DNA of 64,000 nucleotides from Lentzea sp. NEAU-D7 (GTDB lineage Bacteria; Actinomycetota; Actinomycetes; Mycobacteriales; Pseudonocardiaceae): assembly GCF_026242055.1 (NCBI RefSeq), contig NZ_JAPJDL010000010.1:186001-250000 (forward strand), in the 5' to 3' direction. Both the position numbers and the translations under genes were made by a program. The stretch's first letter is position 1; every line of letters begins with the position of its first letter. This document shows positions 19,599 to 27,220 of this stretch, piece by piece. Below the pieces are notes generated by a model. It saw only the letters and a program-made list of their open reading frames with translations. It was not told the DNA's origin and made no database searches.

Positions 19599-19739
19599 AT
19601 GAACTCCCATCCCGAACAGCCCGTGCCCGACCCGCCGCCACCTCTGCCGCCCGTGCCCAGCCAACCGGTGACCGGGGTCGACTGGTTTCGTCGCATGCCG
19701 AACGGTGGCGCGACCGTGTACACGCGGCCGACGGACTGA
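19599..19739 (+). CDS. Short Pro-rich peptide A with WFRRMPNGG motif (candidate RiPP precursor)
   Basis: 46 residues. The first half is Pro-rich (PVPDPPPPLPPVPSQP), then QPVTGVDWFRRMPNGGATV and a short tail YTRPTD. The same WFRRMPNGG block occurs in the peptides at 24565 and 25213, with variable flanks: a leader-plus-conserved-core arrangement. Here an extra Ala precedes Thr (NGGATV instead of NGGTV). The ATG has a strong GGGAGGAG ribosome site. It ends 8 bp before the membrane-protein gene, so the two are probably one transcript. No signal peptide or membrane helix. Role as a modified-peptide precursor is inferred from the HExxH enzyme near its paralogue. Confidence 0.72.
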   Translation: MNSHPEQPVPDPPPPLPPVPSQPVTGVDWFRRMPNGGATVYTRPTD

Positions 19740-19747
19740 GAGCAGCG

Positions 19748-20803
19748 ATGCGGTCGCGTTTGCTGATCTACTTCGGCAGCGTGCTCGCCGTGATCGCACT
19801 GATCAACACGTCAGCGCCGAAGATCATCGTGTCCGCGGTGCTGAACCCGGAGGCGGGTGAGGCGGTCGCCCGGAGCCTCAGCCCTGTCACCAGGGACCTC
19901 GTTCTGGTGTTGCTGGTCTCGATCTACTTCGAGTGGGCGCGCAACAGGAGTCAGGGCGAGCTGCTGCGCAGCGTCGATCTGAAGATCGATGAGATTCGTG
20001 ACGACGCCAGGTCGGCGACCGCACCCTCCACGAGGAAGCTCGTGCTCGACAGCACGGGAGCTGAAGAGCTCGTGACACTGGCACTGGACCGTCATGCGCC
20101 GAACACCGGCGACAAGACGTCGTTCATCGCGATGGTTCTGTCACAAAGGCCTGTTTACGACAACGTTTCGGTCGCGCTGCGGGTGGACGGCGTGGACGGG
20201 GAGACGGTGCACGTCAGCAACCGCTTCGAAGCGACGATGCGACGCGGTCCGATCCTGATCGCCGCCACGAGGTCTCCGCCGCAATCTGCCGCTCTGTCGG
20301 CAGCCTGTCCTGAGCTGTTCGAGGTCACCGCCCTACCCAGGTCAACGCCGTTCGACGAGGCTGTGGAGGCGTTCGGCCGGCAACTCGAGTGCTACGTGAC
20401 GCCACCGGGCGGCGGAGCCAGAAGAGTCGGCTTCCGCAAGGTGCCGACCGACGAGTTGCACCGGCATCTCTCGCCGCCGGTCGGAATAGCCGCGTCCGAC
20501 ATCGCGCTCTTCGCCGCAGATCTGAGCCAGGAAAAGACAGACCTCGTTCGCGTGCGACATCACTTCCGCTGGACGCAGAAGCTCGACGAGCACTTCATCT
20601 ACTGGTACGCCGACAGGCCGATGTTCATCAGCAGCCTCACCGTGGACGTGCGGGAAACGATGCGGAAGCAGTACAGGGAAGTGTGGGTGCAGGCCCATCT
20701 CGGTGGCGTCGACTCGTTGATGCTCGACGCGGACGAGGGTTACCTCTCGTTGAGGCTCAACCGGTGGGTCGTTCAAGGACATGGCGTCACAGCGATCTGG
20801 TGA
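19748..20803 (+). CDS. Two-helix membrane protein, paralogue A of a convergent pair
   Basis: 351 residues, no recognised family. Two N-terminal membrane helices (LLIYFGSVLAVIALI and DLVLVLLVSIYFEWA), then a cytoplasmic domain of about 270 residues. The C-terminal half aligns by eye with the product of the convergent gene: ILIAATRSPPQSAALSAACP here versus FVIFATSNATLRDSISAACR there, and the very end GHGVTAIW versus GHGVALLW. ATG 19748 lies 8 bp after peptide A. Stops of the two paralogues are one base apart. Function unknown; a sensor, export-associated or immunity role for the peptide locus is conceivable. Confidence 0.75.
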   Translation: MRSRLLIYFGSVLAVIALINTSAPKIIVSAVLNPEAGEAVARSLSPVTRDLVLVLLVSIYFEWARNRSQGELLRSVDLKIDEIRDDARSATAPSTRKLVLDSTGAEELVTLALDRHAPNTGDKTSFIAMVLSQRPVYDNVSVALRVDGVDGETVHVSNRFEATMRRGPILIAATRSPPQSAALSAACPELFEVTALPRSTPFDEAVEAFGRQLECYVTPPGGGARRVGFRKVPTDELHRHLSPPVGIAASDIALFAADLSQEKTDLVRVRHHFRWTQKLDEHFIYWYADRPMFISSLTVDVRETMRKQYREVWVQAHLGGVDSLMLDADEGYLSLRLNRWVVQGHGVTAIW

Positions 20804-20804
20804 C

Positions 20805-21941
20805 TCAGCCCATCGCCTCGCGCCACAGCAAGGCCACCCCGTGCCCCGGCAGAAGCCACGACCGCACGTCCAGGTCCTCGAGTTCGCCGGCCTCCAACCA
20901 GCGCGCGGCCGCCGTCGCCGACCGGAACGTGAACGGCATGACCCGGAACTCGTGCCTGGGGGACTGCTCGACGGCCAGTCCGGTCGCGTCGAAGCTGATG
21001 GTGTCCACAAAGGACGGGTAGGGCGACTGCCAGTAGCAGAAGCCGTCGTTGGTGCGCTGCAACGTGCGTGACCAGACGGTGAGCTCGCGGATCGAGCGCA
21101 CCACGTGGTCCTCCGCGATGCGGCTGAGATCGCACTCGAGGATCCGCAGATCGCTCATGTGGTCGAGCGGGCTGAGCTTGCCCAGCGGGCCCGTCGACTC
21201 GCGGAAGAACGTCAGGTAGTTGGTCCACTGGTCGAATCTCACCTCGACCGGCGGGATCTGGCTGGGCTCTGCCGATCGGCGCAGTCCTTCGTGGTCGAGG
21301 TAGTCGATCGCGATCTGGGTGGAGTGGCGCAGGTCGTCGACGGAGTCGAGGAACAGCGAAGGGTCCGGGATGAAGTACAGCTCGAACAACGGATAGCGGC
21401 AGGCGGCGCTGATGCTGTCGCGCAGGGTGGCGTTCGAGGTCGCGAAGATGACGAAGCGTTCGGTGGGGACGTCGTTGCGGAAGCGGTACCGCTGCGTCGT
21501 CATCAGGTGGTACGTCTTGGTGTCGATGCCTTGCAGCTCCAGCTTCACGGTGGTGCTGGTGCTGATCGTCAGGTCGTCGCCGCGCGGGCGCATGCCCTCG
21601 CCACCGAGCACACCAGCCACCACGTCGTCGTTCGCGTCGTTCGGGCCGTACACCGACGAGAGGAACGTGCGCAGCACCTCGGAAGGAAGCAGGTGTTCGA
21701 CGATGCCCGGTCCGGAGATCCGGCCGAACTCCACGACGAGACGCTTGTGCAGGAACAGTTCGTAGGCGCCGAGCAGAAATCCCGCGAGCGCTGGCAACGG
21801 CCAGAACACGACCAACACGTCGTGCAGCACGCTTCGCGAGGTGGGTTGCCACAGCAGCACGGCTGTCAGATCCGCAGCCGCGACGGCGATCAACAGGATC
21901 GCGACGGCCAGCGCTTGTTTGTGCCTGCGCGCCGTCACCAC
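20805..21941 (-). CDS. Two-helix membrane protein, paralogue B of a convergent pair
   Basis: 378 residues from GTG 21941 (GTG 21938 also possible). Two N-terminal helices (ALAVAILLIAVAAADLTAVLL and VLVVFWPLPALAGFLLGAY, in part) and a soluble domain homologous to paralogue A (see SAACRYPLFELYFI and CYWQSPYPSFVDTISFD). It lies 88 bp downstream of the GntR gene on the same strand and may share its transcript. No catalytic motif recognised. Confidence 0.75.
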   Translation of the reverse strand: MVTARRHKQALAVAILLIAVAAADLTAVLLWQPTSRSVLHDVLVVFWPLPALAGFLLGAYELFLHKRLVVEFGRISGPGIVEHLLPSEVLRTFLSSVYGPNDANDDVVAGVLGGEGMRPRGDDLTISTSTTVKLELQGIDTKTYHLMTTQRYRFRNDVPTERFVIFATSNATLRDSISAACRYPLFELYFIPDPSLFLDSVDDLRHSTQIAIDYLDHEGLRRSAEPSQIPPVEVRFDQWTNYLTFFRESTGPLGKLSPLDHMSDLRILECDLSRIAEDHVVRSIRELTVWSRTLQRTNDGFCYWQSPYPSFVDTISFDATGLAVEQSPRHEFRVMPFTFRSATAAARWLEAGELEDLDVRSWLLPGHGVALLWREAMG

Positions 21942-22029
21942 CTGGTCGCCGCCCCCTCACTCCACCGGCCGTCCATACATGGTGGGAGTGATGAGGTAAC
22001 TGCGCCAGCCCCTTTCGGTCACTGCCGTA

Positions 22030-22827
22030 TCAGCGCGACCTGCCCCAGATCGGGTTGTCCGACACCCCGACGTACGTGCTGAGGTTCGCTTTGGGCTGTG
22101 TGTCGTCCGCCGCAACGTCGTTGTACAGCCCGAGCAGATGGGTGGTCATCGCGCTCTTCGCGCCCACCTCGTCGTGACGACGCAGGAACCAGATGACCTG
22201 CTCGTGCTCGTTCGCGGAGCGGTTGTGCACCTCGCGGGACGGGTGCGCGTGCCGCTTGCAGTCCTGCAGGCCTGGCACGAGCACCTGGTACATGTGCTCC
22301 AGCAGTTCGTTGTGCGACGCGCGGATCAGCGCCGAGTGGAACTCCTCGTCCGACTCGATCACCTCCTGCGCGTCCTCGACCTGCGCGCGCTGGTAGCGGT
22401 GGTTCAGCTTGGCGAGCTCGTCCAGTTCGCCGTCGCCGGCGCGCACCGCGGCCAGCGACGCGGCGGTGGTCTCCAGCGCGATCCGCACTTCCAGCAGGTC
22501 GGTCGGGGAGAACTGCTTCGCGGCGAGTCGTCCCTCGATGTGCTCTTCGACGGCGGCGAGGTCGGTGCGGCGGACGTACCAGCCCAGTCCGCGGCGGACC
22601 TCGACGATGCCCTGGAGTTGCAGCCGCTGCAGTGCGGTGCGCAGCGACGACCTCGCGACGTCCAGTTTGCGCGCGAGTTCCGGCTCGGTGGGGAGGCGGT
22701 CGCCGGCTTTGAGGGTGCCGCCGATGATCTGCTCTCGGAGCTTCTGCTCGATGAGCTCCGGCAGGGGCCGTCGCGAGTCAGGCGAGAGCGACCAGCTCTC
22801 GCCGAGATGAACGTCGTCGGCGGGCAT
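22030..22827 (-). CDS. GntR-family (FadR subfamily) transcriptional regulator
   Basis: 265 residues from ATG 22827. Winged helix-turn-helix (LPELIEQKLREQIIGGTLKAG; LPTEPELARKLDVARSSLRTAL in part) and a FCD/FadR C-terminal all-helical sensor domain with the metal/ligand pattern ESDEEFHSALIRASHNELL (in part). The upstream frame to 22947 runs through the operator region and was rejected. Two matching TTGNCNGNCAA palindromes lie 37-69 bp upstream, between it and the divergent small membrane protein, so it likely controls both directions. Confidence 0.9.
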   Translation of the reverse strand: MPADDVHLGESWSLSPDSRRPLPELIEQKLREQIIGGTLKAGDRLPTEPELARKLDVARSSLRTALQRLQLQGIVEVRRGLGWYVRRTDLAAVEEHIEGRLAAKQFSPTDLLEVRIALETTAASLAAVRAGDGELDELAKLNHRYQRAQVEDAQEVIESDEEFHSALIRASHNELLEHMYQVLVPGLQDCKRHAHPSREVHNRSANEHEQVIWFLRRHDEVGAKSAMTTHLLGLYNDVAADDTQPKANLSTYVGVSDNPIWGRSR

Positions 22828-22863
22828 TGTCCAAGCGTAAGCCTGTTGCCTGTCGGTTGCAAC

Positions 22864-22896
22864 TTGTCTGGCAACCTGGCGACCGTTGACAGACAA
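22864..22896. promoter_or_regulatory. Paired GntR-type operators
   Basis: TTGTCTGGCAA (22864-22874) and TTGACAGACAA (22886-22896) both fit TTGNCNGNCAA, with centres 22 bp apart (two helical turns). A weaker copy TTGCCTGTCGG is at 22846-22856. The shape matches the TNGTNNNACNA class bound by FadR-type GntR proteins. Lies between divergent gntR and the small membrane gene. Confidence 0.62.
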
Positions 22897-22983
22897 CCTA
22901 CAACACGGGACCCTTGTTCCAGGCGAGACGCCCGGGACCGCCCACACCTGGGAGCACGTGCTCGCCTAGTCGGGAGGAGCGAG

Positions 22984-23136
22984 ATGTCCGCAGGGAGCGC
23001 ACTCGGAATAGCCGCCGCCGTCGCCGTCGCCGTTACCGCGATCGGATGGCGCACCGTGATCACGATGATCCTGGTCTCGGTCGTCGCACTGGCCGTGGTC
23101 GGCTTCGTGAACGTCACCAGCATCATGTTCGGCTGA
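22984..23136 (+). CDS. Small two-helix membrane protein
   Basis: 50 residues, almost entirely hydrophobic: helix one ALGIAAAVAVAVTAIGW, a short RT turn, helix two VITMILVSVVALAVVGFV. ATG 22984 is preceded by GGGAGGAGC, a near-perfect ribosome site. First gene of the plus-strand unit containing the HExxH enzyme and peptide B, directly next to the GntR operators. No family recognised; could be a transport, immunity or anchoring subunit. Confidence 0.68.
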   Translation: MSAGSALGIAAAVAVAVTAIGWRTVITMILVSVVALAVVGFVNVTSIMFG

Positions 23137-23153
23137 TGAACAGAGCCGATCAG

Positions 23154-23187
23154 TGCCCGGTCAGCGCCCGCAGGCGCAGGCCGGGCA
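23154..23187 (+). terminator. Stem-loop between small membrane gene and HExxH gene
   Basis: Outer arms TGCCCGG / CCGGGCA and inner arms GCGCC / GGCGC around CGCA, starting 17 bp after the small membrane gene. There is no U tract. It may be an attenuator that lowers expression of the downstream enzyme relative to the small protein, or a full terminator with a new promoter after it. Confidence 0.42.
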
Positions 23188-23260
23188 TCGATCTTCTGGG
23201 GGGATCCCGGTTTCGCGTCGGTGACGCAGGTCGCTATCTTCCCGCGACAGGGAGCTTTCG

Positions 23261-24541
23261 GTGGTCAAGCGCCGGCTCCACGCCGCCGGGTACGTGAACA
23301 CGGGGTCTTCGATGTTGGGTTCTCCATCAGCACCTGCACTGCACGCGCGGCTCGCGCCCGCGGACGTGCTGGTCGACGAGCGACGCGCGCTCTACCGCCT
23401 CGCCGTCGATTTGTTCGCACCTGGTGCGGAGATGTCAGACAACCTCCTCGACCATCCGATCGTGCGCTACGAGATCGGTCGTGCCCTGGCCGGGCACGGC
23501 GGCGTGGACCCGGAGGCGCTGCGCGAGGTCGCCGCGACGGGGGTGCGGGACGCCGGCATCGCGGTGGCGTCCGATCCGGCGGCTGCCAAGCAGCTGGAAG
23601 CGCCGTTGCGCATCATCGCCCCACCCGGTCAGGCACCGCGGCCGCTCACCGAGGCGGACGGTGAGCGGTTCGAGACGGCGATCAGGATCGTGGCTGAGGG
23701 CGTCGACCTGTTCAGGCGGCTCGCCCCTGCGATGGCCGGCGACCTGCTGGCCCACGTGTCGATGCTCGTGGTGCTCAAGGCGGAGACGTCCGGGGGAGTG
23801 GTTTCCGCGTCGTCGCGATACGTGCCGGGAATCGTGCTGATCGACGAGCCGGCGTGCCCGATGGAAGTGGCCGAGGCGCTCGTGCACGAGGGTGCGCACG
23901 AGAAGTTCTTCGACTTCGCCATCACGCAGAAGTTCCTCGACGCGCACGCCGAGGAAGCCGAGTACTTCGAGACCTCCTGGTCCCGCGCCCGATGGCCCCT
24001 GGAGCAGACCTTCGCGGCCTGGCACGCCTACACCTGTCTCAGCCAGTTCTCCCAGTTGTCCGAGTCGGAACAGCTGGGTCCGCACTCCCTGCTGCCCAAG
24101 GCTCGGGAACGGGCCGCGGAGATCGGCGACTGGTTGATGGCGCACGAGCACGACCTGCTGTCGGACGCGCGATGGCTGCTGCACGCCCTGGCGGGCCAAG
24201 TGGCCGATGCCGTCGAAGGGGTGCCCACTGCGGACGCGTCCGTCCTCGCCGCCGGCGTCCGCGAGGACGGGAGTTTCCGGGTGCTGCCGGACGTGGTCTA
24301 CCGGCTCGCGAAGAGTGGTCGCGCCGTGGTGGGCCGCGTGCAGGAACTGCCGGAGATCTTCTGGCTCGACCCCGACGCCAGCTGGGTGCTGAAAGAGTGC
24401 CACCGGGCACCGGCACCGTTCCGGCTGCTGCTCGGAAACGCCGCAGAGAAGTGGCGGACCGACTTGCCCGAGACGCGGCGGCGCCTGGCAGCCGCTCTGG
24501 GGTCGTTGCGCGTGTTCTCGATCGTCGAAGCGAGTGAGTGA
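23261..24541 (+). CDS. HExxH peptide-modification enzyme (alpha-ketoglutarate-HExxH / TIGR04267-like)
   Basis: 426 residues; GTG start with GGGAGC 8 bases upstream. The motif LVHEGAHEKFF gives HExxH at residues 209-213, and a third probable ligand His255 follows in FAAWHAYTCLSQF. This arrangement matches the HEXXH-motif putative peptide modification family (TIGR04267), members of which have been shown to be iron/alpha-ketoglutarate beta-hydroxylases acting on RiPP precursors rather than proteases. The segment from about residue 335 to 395 (RVLPDVVYRL, then WVLKEC) weakly resembles a PqqD-type recognition fold. The peptide-B gene starts 23 bp downstream. No signal peptide; cytoplasmic. Family call is moderate; the alternative is a zinc metalloprotease. 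Confidence 0.72.
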   Translation: MVKRRLHAAGYVNTGSSMLGSPSAPALHARLAPADVLVDERRALYRLAVDLFAPGAEMSDNLLDHPIVRYEIGRALAGHGGVDPEALREVAATGVRDAGIAVASDPAAAKQLEAPLRIIAPPGQAPRPLTEADGERFETAIRIVAEGVDLFRRLAPAMAGDLLAHVSMLVVLKAETSGGVVSASSRYVPGIVLIDEPACPMEVAEALVHEGAHEKFFDFAITQKFLDAHAEEAEYFETSWSRARWPLEQTFAAWHAYTCLSQFSQLSESEQLGPHSLLPKARERAAEIGDWLMAHEHDLLSDARWLLHALAGQVADAVEGVPTADASVLAAGVREDGSFRVLPDVVYRLAKSGRAVVGRVQELPEIFWLDPDASWVLKECHRAPAPFRLLLGNAAEKWRTDLPETRRRLAAALGSLRVFSIVEASE

Positions 24542-24551
24542 CTCAAATCCT

Positions 24552-24573
24552 TCGAGAAGGAACCATGACCACC
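24552..24573 (+). repeat. Duplicated ribosome-site/start segment, copy 1
   Basis: 22 bp (containing CGAGAAGGAACCATGACCAC) identical to 25200-25221. It spans the AAGGA ribosome site, the start codon and the first codons of peptide B, indicating that the peptide genes B and C come from a duplication. Confidence 0.7.
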
Positions 24574-24738
24574 TCGAACCGGGTTGTCCGTCAGCAGCAG
24601 TTCCCTCCGGCCCCCGAAGCACGGCTCCCGCGGTCGTCTCCTGGGGTGGACATCCCGGAGGGGCGGTCCGTGGTGCCGATCGAGTGGTTCCGGCGCATGC
24701 CGAACGGTGGCACCGTCCACCTCCGCCCGTCGCGTTGA
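24565..24738 (+). CDS. Short peptide B with WFRRMPNGG motif (candidate RiPP precursor)
   Basis: 57 residues. Variable N-terminal region (NRVVRQQQFPPAPEARLP), then VVPIEWFRRMPNGGTVHL and the end RPSR. AAGGA lies 5 bases before the ATG. The gene follows the HExxH enzyme with a 23-bp gap, the placement expected for a substrate. The block EWFRRMPNGGTV is shared with peptides A and C; residues before it differ freely, as leaders or linkers would. Asn, Asp/Glu or His in the conserved C-terminal part would be candidate hydroxylation sites, but which residue is modified cannot be told from sequence. Confidence 0.75.
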   Translation: MTTSNRVVRQQQFPPAPEARLPRSSPGVDIPEGRSVVPIEWFRRMPNGGTVHLRPSR

Positions 24739-25199
24739 TCTTGCTGGTGGCGTCGGCATCGGCCGCAGGTATTCGCGCGTCGAATGAGAAATGTGTTCAT
24801 TTCTTCTATTTCCGCCTCAGCGGGTCACGCCTAGGATGGCCGCCGGGAGCAGTTGTTCCGCCATGCGGCCCATCGCGGTCTGCCCGTTGTCCTGTGCGCA
24901 CGGCTTGAACGGCAGGCTTCACACCTTCGGGTTCTAAGCCACGAATGTGCAGGTGAGGCCCCTTGCAAGCCGTTGTAGACTTCCGCATCCGGTCCACCCG
25001 GTGTGCCACAAATCGCTACGCGTTCGACGCCGTCACCAGTCGTTTTCCGGTGCGCGATCCGACGATAGGCGATGAATATCGCGCGAGGTCACACTCAGGC
25101 GAACCGGGTATCACCAGCTCGACGCGTCTTGTGAACAAGTCGTGGTTCAGGGCTTCCCGGGTATCCGGAGTTCCTCACGCGCAGGCCCCGACCCATCCG
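24739..25199. other. Non-coding stretch between peptide genes B and C
   Basis: 461 bp with no convincing gene; open frames have shadow-like composition. It contains a locally AT-rich stem-loop AGAAATG-TGTT-CATTTCT (24787-24804) that may terminate the peptide-B transcript. The length leaves room for a separate promoter for peptide C, but no clear -35/-10 pair stands out. Confidence 0.5.
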
Positions 25200-25221
25200 T
25201 CGAGAAGGAACCATGACCACC
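25200..25221 (+). repeat. Duplicated ribosome-site/start segment, copy 2
   Basis: Identical 22 bp to 24552-24573, covering the ribosome site and first codons of peptide C. Confidence 0.7.
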
Positions 25222-25401
25222 CCGAACCAGCCTCCCGGTCGGCCCCAGCTCCCCCTTGGTGCCGGCGTTCCTGTTCCCCACCTCCCCACTGGGGTGGGTC
25301 CGGTGCTCGGCCAGCCCGTCACCCCCGTTGACTGGTTCAGGCGCATGCCGAACGGTGGCACGGTGTTCCTCAAGCCCGCCGAGGTGACGCAGAACGACTG
25401 A
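25213..25401 (+). CDS. Short peptide C with WFRRMPNGG motif (candidate RiPP precursor)
   Basis: 62 residues. Starts MTTPNQPPGRPQLPLGAG, continues Pro/Val/Gly-rich, then QPVTPVDWFRRMPNGGTVF and a longer, more acidic tail LKPAEVTQND. Peptides A and C share QPVT-VDWFRR; B and C share start region and NGGTV. Followed 27 bp later by a strong terminator, so it is probably a monocistronic precursor gene or the end of the peptide unit. Confidence 0.74.
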   Translation: MTTPNQPPGRPQLPLGAGVPVPHLPTGVGPVLGQPVTPVDWFRRMPNGGTVFLKPAEVTQND

Positions 25402-25601: not shown

Positions 25602-26294
25602 ATGCGCCTGACCTCCCCGAGACCCAGCCGTCTGCTCGCGGTGGCGTCCGTCACCGCTGCGGTCACCTTCGCCTTCGCGACCACCGCGTTCGCGGGTGAG
25701 CCGGAGAAATTCGACGGCAACATCGAGTGGAACTGGGACAACGCCTGCTCGGTGGGTGGTCTCACCGGTACCTCGTACACGCAGGACCAGTTCGAGTTCA
25801 CCGGCGGCAAGGACACGCAGGACCTCGACATCACCGGCATCAAGCCGGCCGGTGTGACGATCACCGGAGTGGTCGTCAAGGGCAGCAACGCCTACCACGT
25901 CTACCTCGCGGACGACCTCGGCACGCTGCCGTGGAACGACCTGAAGGCGCCGGTCAACAACGGTGGCAACGTCGCGGACATCAGTCACTGGTATGCCTGC
26001 GGCGTCAAGAGCACGACCACCACGACCACCACCACGACGACGACCACCACGACTTCCCCGACGACGATCACGCACTCGTCGTCCCCGAGCTCCACCACGA
26101 GCACCACGACGACGACCACCACCTCTGGTGAGGTCGCGCCGACCACGACCACGACGGTCGCGCCCGTGCCTGTCGCCGACGAGGACGACCTGGCCTCCAC
26201 CGGGTTCGGGTCCGCCTGGCTGCTCGGCCTCGGTGCCGCGCTCGTCGCCGGTGGTGCCGCTGTGCTGTTCGTGCTGCGCAGGCGTCGCGCCTAA
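25602..26294 (+). CDS. Cell-wall-anchored protein, Thr-rich stalk and LAXTG sorting signal (copy 1)
   Basis: 230 residues. Signal peptide (LLAVASVTAAVTFAFA, cleavage near AFAG), a globular domain of about 115 residues bounded by two cysteines (NACSVGGLTG and WYACGV) that may form a disulfide, a poly-Thr/Ser stalk of about 60 residues, the sorting motif LASTG, a C-terminal membrane helix and RRRRRA-type tail. LAXTG is the motif of class E sortases of high-GC Gram-positives. The globular domain is not recognised. The next gene is a paralogue. Acts at the cell surface. Confidence 0.85.
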   Translation: MRLTSPRPSRLLAVASVTAAVTFAFATTAFAGEPEKFDGNIEWNWDNACSVGGLTGTSYTQDQFEFTGGKDTQDLDITGIKPAGVTITGVVVKGSNAYHVYLADDLGTLPWNDLKAPVNNGGNVADISHWYACGVKSTTTTTTTTTTTTTTSPTTITHSSSPSSTTSTTTTTTTSGEVAPTTTTTVAPVPVADEDDLASTGFGSAWLLGLGAALVAGGAAVLFVLRRRRA

Positions 26295-26488: not shown

Positions 26489-27220
26489 ATGCGTTCGACG
26501 CCCCTGAGACGTTCCGGCCTGCTCGCCTCGGCCGCCCTGGCCGCTGTGGCCTCGCTCGTGCTGGCGACCAGTGCGTTCGCCGACGAGGTGACCACGGACG
26601 ACCCGCGCGCGCAGCCGTTCTTCCAGTTCGTCGACGTCAACCACCCCGATGCCTGCACCGTGGGCGGGCTCAGCGGGAACGTGGTCCTGCCCGGCGAGTT
26701 CGGCTACACCGGCGGCGACAACCAGCAGCACCTGAACATCACCGGGTTGCCCAAGAACGTGCAGGTCACGGGCATGCTCGTGAAGGCGGGGGACGTGTTC
26801 AACGTCTACCTGGCCGACAAGCTCGGCGACGCGCTGCCGTGGAACGAGCTGCGCGCCCCGGTCGTCGACGGCGGAAACCTCCCGGAGATCGGTCAGTGGT
26901 TCGGATGTGGTGTCGCTGTCGAACAGCCGCCCACCAGCACCACGACCACCACCACTACGACGACGACCACCACCACGTCCGAGTCGACCGTGACCCACTC
27001 GTCGACGCCGACCTCCACGTCGACCTCCGAACCGGCCTCGTCGTCTTCTTCCGCTGAAGCCGTGCCCACCACGACGACCACCGCCGCGCCCGTGCCGGTC
27101 GCCGAGGTGCACGACCTGGCCGCCACCGGCTTCGGGTCCGCGTGGATGCTCGGCCTCGGTGCCGCGCTCGTGGCCGCTGGTGCCGCGATGGTGCTCGTGA
27201 TGCGCAGGCGTCGCGCCTAA
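26489..27220 (+). CDS. Cell-wall-anchored protein, Thr-rich stalk and LAXTG sorting signal (copy 2)
   Basis: 243 residues, tandem paralogue of the preceding gene with the same order: signal peptide (ALAAVASLVLATSAFAD), two-cysteine domain (DACTVGGLSG to WFGCGV, with LADKLGDALPWNEL matching LADDLGTLPWNDL), Thr/Ser stalk, LAATG, hydrophobic helix and basic tail. Its stop codon overlaps the stop of the convergent phosphotransferase gene by 4 bp. Domain identity between copies is moderate while promoter and sorting signal are nearly constant. Confidence 0.85.
   Translation: MRSTPLRRSGLLASAALAAVASLVLATSAFADEVTTDDPRAQPFFQFVDVNHPDACTVGGLSGNVVLPGEFGYTGGDNQQHLNITGLPKNVQVTGMLVKAGDVFNVYLADKLGDALPWNELRAPVVDGGNLPEIGQWFGCGVAVEQPPTSTTTTTTTTTTTTTSESTVTHSSTPTSTSTSEPASSSSSAEAVPTTTTTAAPVPVAEVHDLAATGFGSAWMLGLGAALVAAGAAMVLVMRRRRA

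Follow-up and report, generated by a model that had tools for sequence, protein, structure and literature searches.

A candidate HExxH-RRE peptide-modification cassette with short motif peptides in Lentzea and related genera

The window analyzed here is a stretch of 64,000 nucleotides from Lentzea sp. NEAU-D7 (contig NZ_JAPJDL010000010.1, positions 186,001 to 250,000), and this study concerns a locus within it that combines the gene of an HExxH enzyme with three short open reading frames, subsequently named motif peptides 1 to 3. A preliminary description of this DNA had listed three short genes (46, 57 and 62 codons) with the common block [VI][DE]WFRRMPNGG(A)TV, one of them starting 23 bp after the HExxH gene. 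All three were recovered (Table 1) and carry the only good copies of the block in the genome; the peptide 2 gene indeed starts 23 bp past the HExxH stop codon, which ends at 24541. A motif search of the genome yielded three matches, all in the window, with E values from 8.6e-8 to 5.1e-6, and the next matches (E 1.5 and 4.7) fell into frames of 946 and 178 aa. Peptide 1 does not adjoin the enzyme and is found 3.5 kb upstream of it, 8 bp before a membrane-protein gene. The C-terminal ends of the three peptides read LRPSR, VTQND and RPTD, respectively. Because peptides 2 and 3 have the same sequence around the ribosome-binding site and start codon, they look like products of a duplication.

Table 1. 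Features of the HExxH locus (window coordinates)
Feature	Position	Strand	Remarks
Motif peptide 1, 46 aa	19599..19739	+	Open frame with motif block
Membrane protein, distant paralogue of 20805-21941	19748..20803	+	~24% identity to neighbor; in part of the Lentzea loci only
Two-helix membrane protein with beta-rich domain	20805..21941	-	Conserved beside enzyme in Lentzea and other genera
GntR/FCD transcription regulator	22030..22947	-	Pfam GntR 66 bits, FCD 89 bits; conserved beside enzyme
50-aa membrane protein, signature IGWRTV	22984..23136	+	Upstream neighbor of enzyme
HExxH enzyme with predicted C-terminal RRE, 426 aa from GTG	23261..24541	+	TIGR04267; model pLDDT 89; 8s5f E 5.9e-8
HExxH motif, residues 209-213 (HEGAH)	23885..23899	+	Invariant in 19/19
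Third His, residue 255	24023..24025	+	Metal ligand by analogy; invariant in 19/19
Predicted PqqD-like RRE domain, ~residues 338-426	24272..24538	+	Model, PqqD 5sxy, TfuB1 match
Motif peptide 2, 57 aa	24565..24738	+	Open frame with motif block; 23 bp after enzyme
Motif peptide 3, 62 aa	25213..25401	+	Open frame with motif block; pN/pS

The enzyme had been assigned to the TIGR04267 type, with HExxH at residues 209-213 and a third histidine at 255, and this assignment holds: the protein scores 75.2-77.0 bits against TIGR04267 (cut-off 40), H209, E210, H213 and H255 are invariant in a 19-sequence alignment, and 97% or more of 46 orthologues retain them (counted on 46 of 48 rows, two being left out). 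The start of the gene is uncertain and is either the GTG at 23261, which gives the 426-aa reading, or the ATG at 23312. A Pfam scan of the 426-residue frame matched no family. An AlphaFold2 model built with 19 orthologues has a mean predicted local distance difference test (pLDDT) score of 89, and Foldseek searches of the PDB matched it to the HExxH domain of ChlB (8s5f, E 5.9e-8, probability 1.00) and to SjiH (22ob, E 3.2e-5). The last 90 residues are modeled in the order strand-strand-strand-strand-helix-helix-helix and match PqqD (5sxy, probability 1.00, root-mean-square deviation (rmsd) 2.6 over 95 columns). Furthermore, an alignment-profile search of PDB sequences found SjiH (E 2.6e-6, the best match), ChlH (E 0.007) and, over the C-terminal part, TfuB1 of a lasso-peptide system (E 0.023), a RiPP recognition element (RRE; RiPP, ribosomally synthesized and post-translationally modified peptide). 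Pfam PqqD gave weak matches in 2 of 19 enzyme family members. The predicted structure and the profile matches point to a ChlB-like alpha-ketoglutarate (alpha-KG)-HExxH oxygenase fold that is fused to a PqqD-like RRE. By analogy with characterized relatives, its activity is probably peptide oxidation. The RRE, a kind of domain that is common but not universal in RiPP pathways, is an independent pointer to a pathway of this type.

The preliminary description had proposed a RiPP-like link between enzyme and peptides and a genome search for the motif near HExxH genes. Among 59 HExxH loci of the family, 57 carry a motif peptide on the same strand within 1.2 kb downstream, a figure that is to be read as a description, since the relaxed pattern was drawn up after the sequences had been inspected and includes literal pieces; the same pattern occurred in 0 of 1714 control windows of the same loci, each at least 7.5 kb from the enzyme center. 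The two exceptions are L193, where the motif peptide lies ~1.9 kb downstream, and L202 with an interrupted enzyme frame. In 390 genomes of the family (at most 22 motif and 4 enzyme candidates were scored per genome), 58 had an enzyme match (E ≤ 1e-6) and 52 a motif match (E ≤ 1e-3): both were found in 51, neither in 331, the enzyme only in 7 and the motif only in one, all these tallies having been made by hand from the two sets of matches. In the motif-only genome the peptide sits at a contig end. Six of the seven enzyme-only genomes belong to the genus containing Pseudonocardia lacus; directly behind the enzyme they encode a diverged peptide that resembles the motif, for example WFAPERPVENGTVYVRP, with local E values from 0.0006 to 1.3, which is weak; the seventh has an interrupted enzyme frame. 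The proposed link is thus supported by the locus counts together with the predicted RRE, and the genome search came out in its favor.

It could be argued that the peptides merely sit in a conserved region. All 24 Lentzea genomes have motif peptides and their neighborhood is largely syntenic too, which would suit such a coincidence; because this neighborhood is shared, they count as little more than one case. However, the adjacency persists in other genera of the family, where the SBP and LacI flanks are absent and APH mostly so, with GntR, membrane protein, enzyme and peptide staying together. In one genome (G019) the enzyme is inverted relative to the flanks and the peptide is inverted along with it. 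Also, the motif is absent from 331 of the 332 genomes that lack an enzyme match. We regard coincidence as very improbable, and judged from these counts the enzyme-peptide link is not due to chance. A chance origin of the motif itself was likewise discarded on the E values in the own genome, the 57 of 59 loci and the empty controls; three further motif matches at E ~0.002 (G076, G080, G154) were taken as chance. The peptide set varies outside Lentzea as well: two diverged motif peptides follow one enzyme in G221 and in G300 (L195), and G221 has two enzyme loci in one genome (L194, L201).

Beyond the family the motif was rare. Among 397 genomes of the order, the family included, 12 had motif matches, of which 11 belong to two family genera and one is a weak partial match (G551); among 394 genomes of the class it was found in the own genome only, besides weak partial matches in G551 and G965. 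On plasmid records the motif query gave two matches at E 7 and 9, the Streptomyces one in frames without the motif, and the HExxH query gave one partial match, in Nonomuraea (E 1e-7). The A5 scan of the genomes, which was incomplete, returned at least 28 loci with one 8-residue pattern. As far as the searches reached, the cassette is limited to one actinobacterial family.

Genes resembling that of peptide 3 are present in 20 of 23 Lentzea loci examined. The uncorrected ratio of nonsynonymous to synonymous differences (pN/pS) of the 20 sequences is 0.39 for the whole gene, with 0.16 inside the motif as compared with 0.42 in the part before it; by this measure peptide 3 is a coding gene, with the strongest purifying selection in the motif.

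The alpha-KG-HExxH domain of ChlB/ChlH (8s5f) was reportedly described by Morishita et al. in 2024. The window enzyme has the HExxH fold and motif in common with it but differs in its fusion partner, which is the predicted RRE, and no radical SAM gene was seen among the scanned neighbors (not every gene was scanned). SjiH (PDB 22nu, 22ob), the best sequence match of the profile, was deposited as a radical SAM core domain-containing protein, unlike the window enzyme; our literature searches found no publication on it. PqqD (5sxy) and the lasso RRE TfuB1 (6jx3) have the same predicted fold as the C-terminal 90 residues, with the difference that the window RRE is fused behind an HExxH domain. HExxH systems of the FxsA/FxsB type have an FxSxx sequence at the peptide C-terminus and a radical SAM partner, and the ends of the window peptides do not conform to FxSxx. 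A second TIGR04267 gene lies elsewhere in the own genome (G000:C10:44162-44617, L208; 167 bits in a 586-aa frame); it has no motif copy, all three genome copies being in the window, and we presume that it could be part of another system, of an Fxs-like kind.

Two reports describe the hydroxylation of Asp, His, Phe, Gln and Pro in peptides by relatives of the enzyme (PMC13060819, PMC12636437). As in the window, PflC/PosC (PMC12636437) and PesO (PMC13060819) are described there as alpha-KG-HExxH enzymes encoded beside small genes of precursors that share a conserved motif at the C-terminus; unlike the window, these clusters also contain MNIO enzymes and transporters, and PflA has a nitrile-hydratase-type leader (PMC12636437), whereas the window peptides have Pro-rich N-termini and occur with membrane partners. 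The first of these sources attributes to PflC/PosC both hydroxylation and cleavage, the latter at ARMD, and recognition of a short conserved C-terminal motif (PMC12636437). By extension the window enzyme might cleave its peptides, oxidatively as PosC/PflC do or hydrolytically, instead of hydroxylating them alone, and the block would then be the cleavage site; the window peptides have no ARMD-like end, however, and we consider cleavage unlikely.

The remaining genes of the cassette encode a regulator and membrane proteins. In 43 of 59 loci the gene of the IGWRTV protein directly precedes that of the enzyme on the same strand, with weaker look-alikes in some others. The two-helix protein was modeled with a pLDDT of 83, and its beta-rich domain is probably cytosolic, judged from the charges; the model gave no PDB match at E ≤ 0.001 and the protein no Pfam family. 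A motif peptide precedes the gene of the paralogous membrane protein by 5-9 bp in 8 of the 11 loci that have this gene. Median identities to the window protein across 22 Lentzea loci are 64% for HExxH, 81% for the two-helix protein, 88.5% for GntR, 98% for LacI and 72% for APH; the rapid divergence of the enzyme was not taken to indicate an arms race, as the flanking APH is also low. Downstream, two paralogous secreted-looking proteins (25602-26294 and 26489-27220, + strand, ~51% identical) have a membrane anchor at the C-terminus and contain long runs of Thr; the first appears mucin-like to Pfam, below the cut-off only, and one or two copies stand beside the cassette across Lentzea.

On the strength of the sequence comparisons and models, we consider it likely that the locus is a compact, self-contained HExxH-RRE peptide-modification (RiPP-like) cassette in which the enzyme has the short peptides as its dedicated substrates. 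Several observations weigh against this. The match to ChlB 8s5f has a TM score of 0.43-0.48 on the query (0.43-0.58 by either length) and an rmsd of 8-10 over the whole chain. Each strand of the RRE evidence is modest by itself: the Foldseek E value for PqqD 5sxy is 0.12, and with the C-terminal pieces alone Pfam PqqD was found in 1 of 10 (22.3 bits, cut-off 23.4), which was not the window's own. The Pseudonocardia peptides resemble the motif weakly, and neither a leader protease nor a peptide exporter was found among the scanned neighbors, although part of the flanks only was annotated and genes of this kind may be located elsewhere. The preliminary description had read the peptides as showing a precursor pattern: the conserved C-terminal block behind a variable N-terminus is confirmed, but it is the opposite of the usual layout with a conserved leader. 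The block may therefore be a recognition site rather than the core.

As regards oxidation, the residue that is modified and the biological role of the cassette, we infer the following scheme. The RRE would dock the peptide, probably via the conserved block; with its TV[FY]x[RK]P end this block could pair as a beta strand. The HExxH domain would then oxidize a residue in or near the block, in the simplest case by beta-hydroxylation, and the product would remain in the cell and act on the co-conserved membrane proteins.

Motif copies that have no HExxH gene nearby were found on phage and prophage-like proteins only. Matches at E ≤ 1e-3 outside enzyme loci occur in 4 of the 390 genomes, always in a longer protein and at its very start or close to it, and all four genomes own the cassette. 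A portal protein lies nearby in L052, terminase and portal in L105 and a phage family of unassigned function in L106; L117 has weak phage matches only and is not clearly a prophage. IMG/VR also contains L105 and L106, as the viral contigs L207 and L204, respectively, and three further IMG/VR contigs carry the motif (L203, L210, L212). The metagenomic contig L118/L203 (3300028831_000280) encodes one small protein with two full motif copies and a partial third, directly upstream of a gene matching phrog_850, an RNA-binding protein. The motif protein of L210 begins MNEVDWFRRWPNGGTVYARPD and that of L212 reads MSEVEWFRRFPNGGTVYARLD. The parts downstream of the motif differ between the phage proteins, L210 and L212 being related to each other. 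Since the Gordonia and other phage homologues of the L052 protein align from residue 81 onward only (among the matches listed, 20 of 63), its motif part looks like an addition. Six DNA patterns run over IMG/VR gave 18 distinct stretches; going by context alone, we accepted 5 of them as real and regarded the other 13 as chance or unclear. In an A5-based scan of IMG/VR, none of 18 candidates was confirmed. A peptide-3-like query found no match in phage records, nor did the C-terminal parts of two prophage proteins (one searched as the whole protein).

We compared the prophage-like copies with the peptides of 48 hosts. The own host ranked first for G201 (shared GGSTAY) and G203 (MPQGG), joint first of two for G170 (MPVGG) and 29th for G019; permutation gave p = 0.0018 for the four pairs and 0.0003 for the three Amycolatopsis-type pairs, values that stem from four pairs only and from a pattern noticed before it was tested. 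Copy and host gene differ at several synonymous positions, which disfavors very recent capture. The phage copies are hints of a host-phage contest. They could mean that the enzyme acts together with the peptide and the membrane proteins in an intracellular circuit directed against phages or opposed by them; the host-matched motif copies of the phages would then occupy the HExxH-RRE enzyme or the membrane receptor of the modified peptide, or become modified themselves. This would be compatible with the substrate reading as chemistry and would add a role. The placement of the motif ahead of otherwise unrelated proteins in L052, L105, L106, L117 and the three viral contigs, the cassette in all four genomes and the own host as best match in three of four, once tied, speak for it. 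However, besides the poor rank in G019 and the doubtful status of L117, the copies may be a functionless capture of host sequence, and PADLOC at E ≤ 0.1 gave no match for the enzyme or for four membrane proteins (GntR matched Csa3, E 9e-4, and CARF3, E 0.043, which we took as regulator look-alikes). We treat the conflict role as a tentative possibility.

A block that is conserved like a docking site and stands ahead of unrelated phage domains would also suit peptides that bind the RRE of the enzyme as unmodified adaptors or inhibitors, the true substrate being another protein such as one of the conserved membrane partners. Yet the adjacent small gene is the substrate in the characterized relatives (PMC12636437, PMC13060819), and we find this arrangement quite improbable.

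Our literature searches found nothing that appears to describe the motif or the cassette, and to that extent the RRE fusion, the GntR and membrane partners and the motif on phage and prophage proteins are new here; all three had escaped the preliminary description. If the substrate reading is true, the cassette would represent a minimal pathway for the alpha-KG-HExxH family, composed of a single enzyme, which brings along its docking domain, and of one to three short peptides, and recognition and chemistry could be studied with two components only. Judged from the conserved membrane proteins, the product may act inside the cell rather than as an antibiotic. The phage copies, under the same proviso, predict that a host peptide enzyme either modifies phage proteins or is blocked by them.

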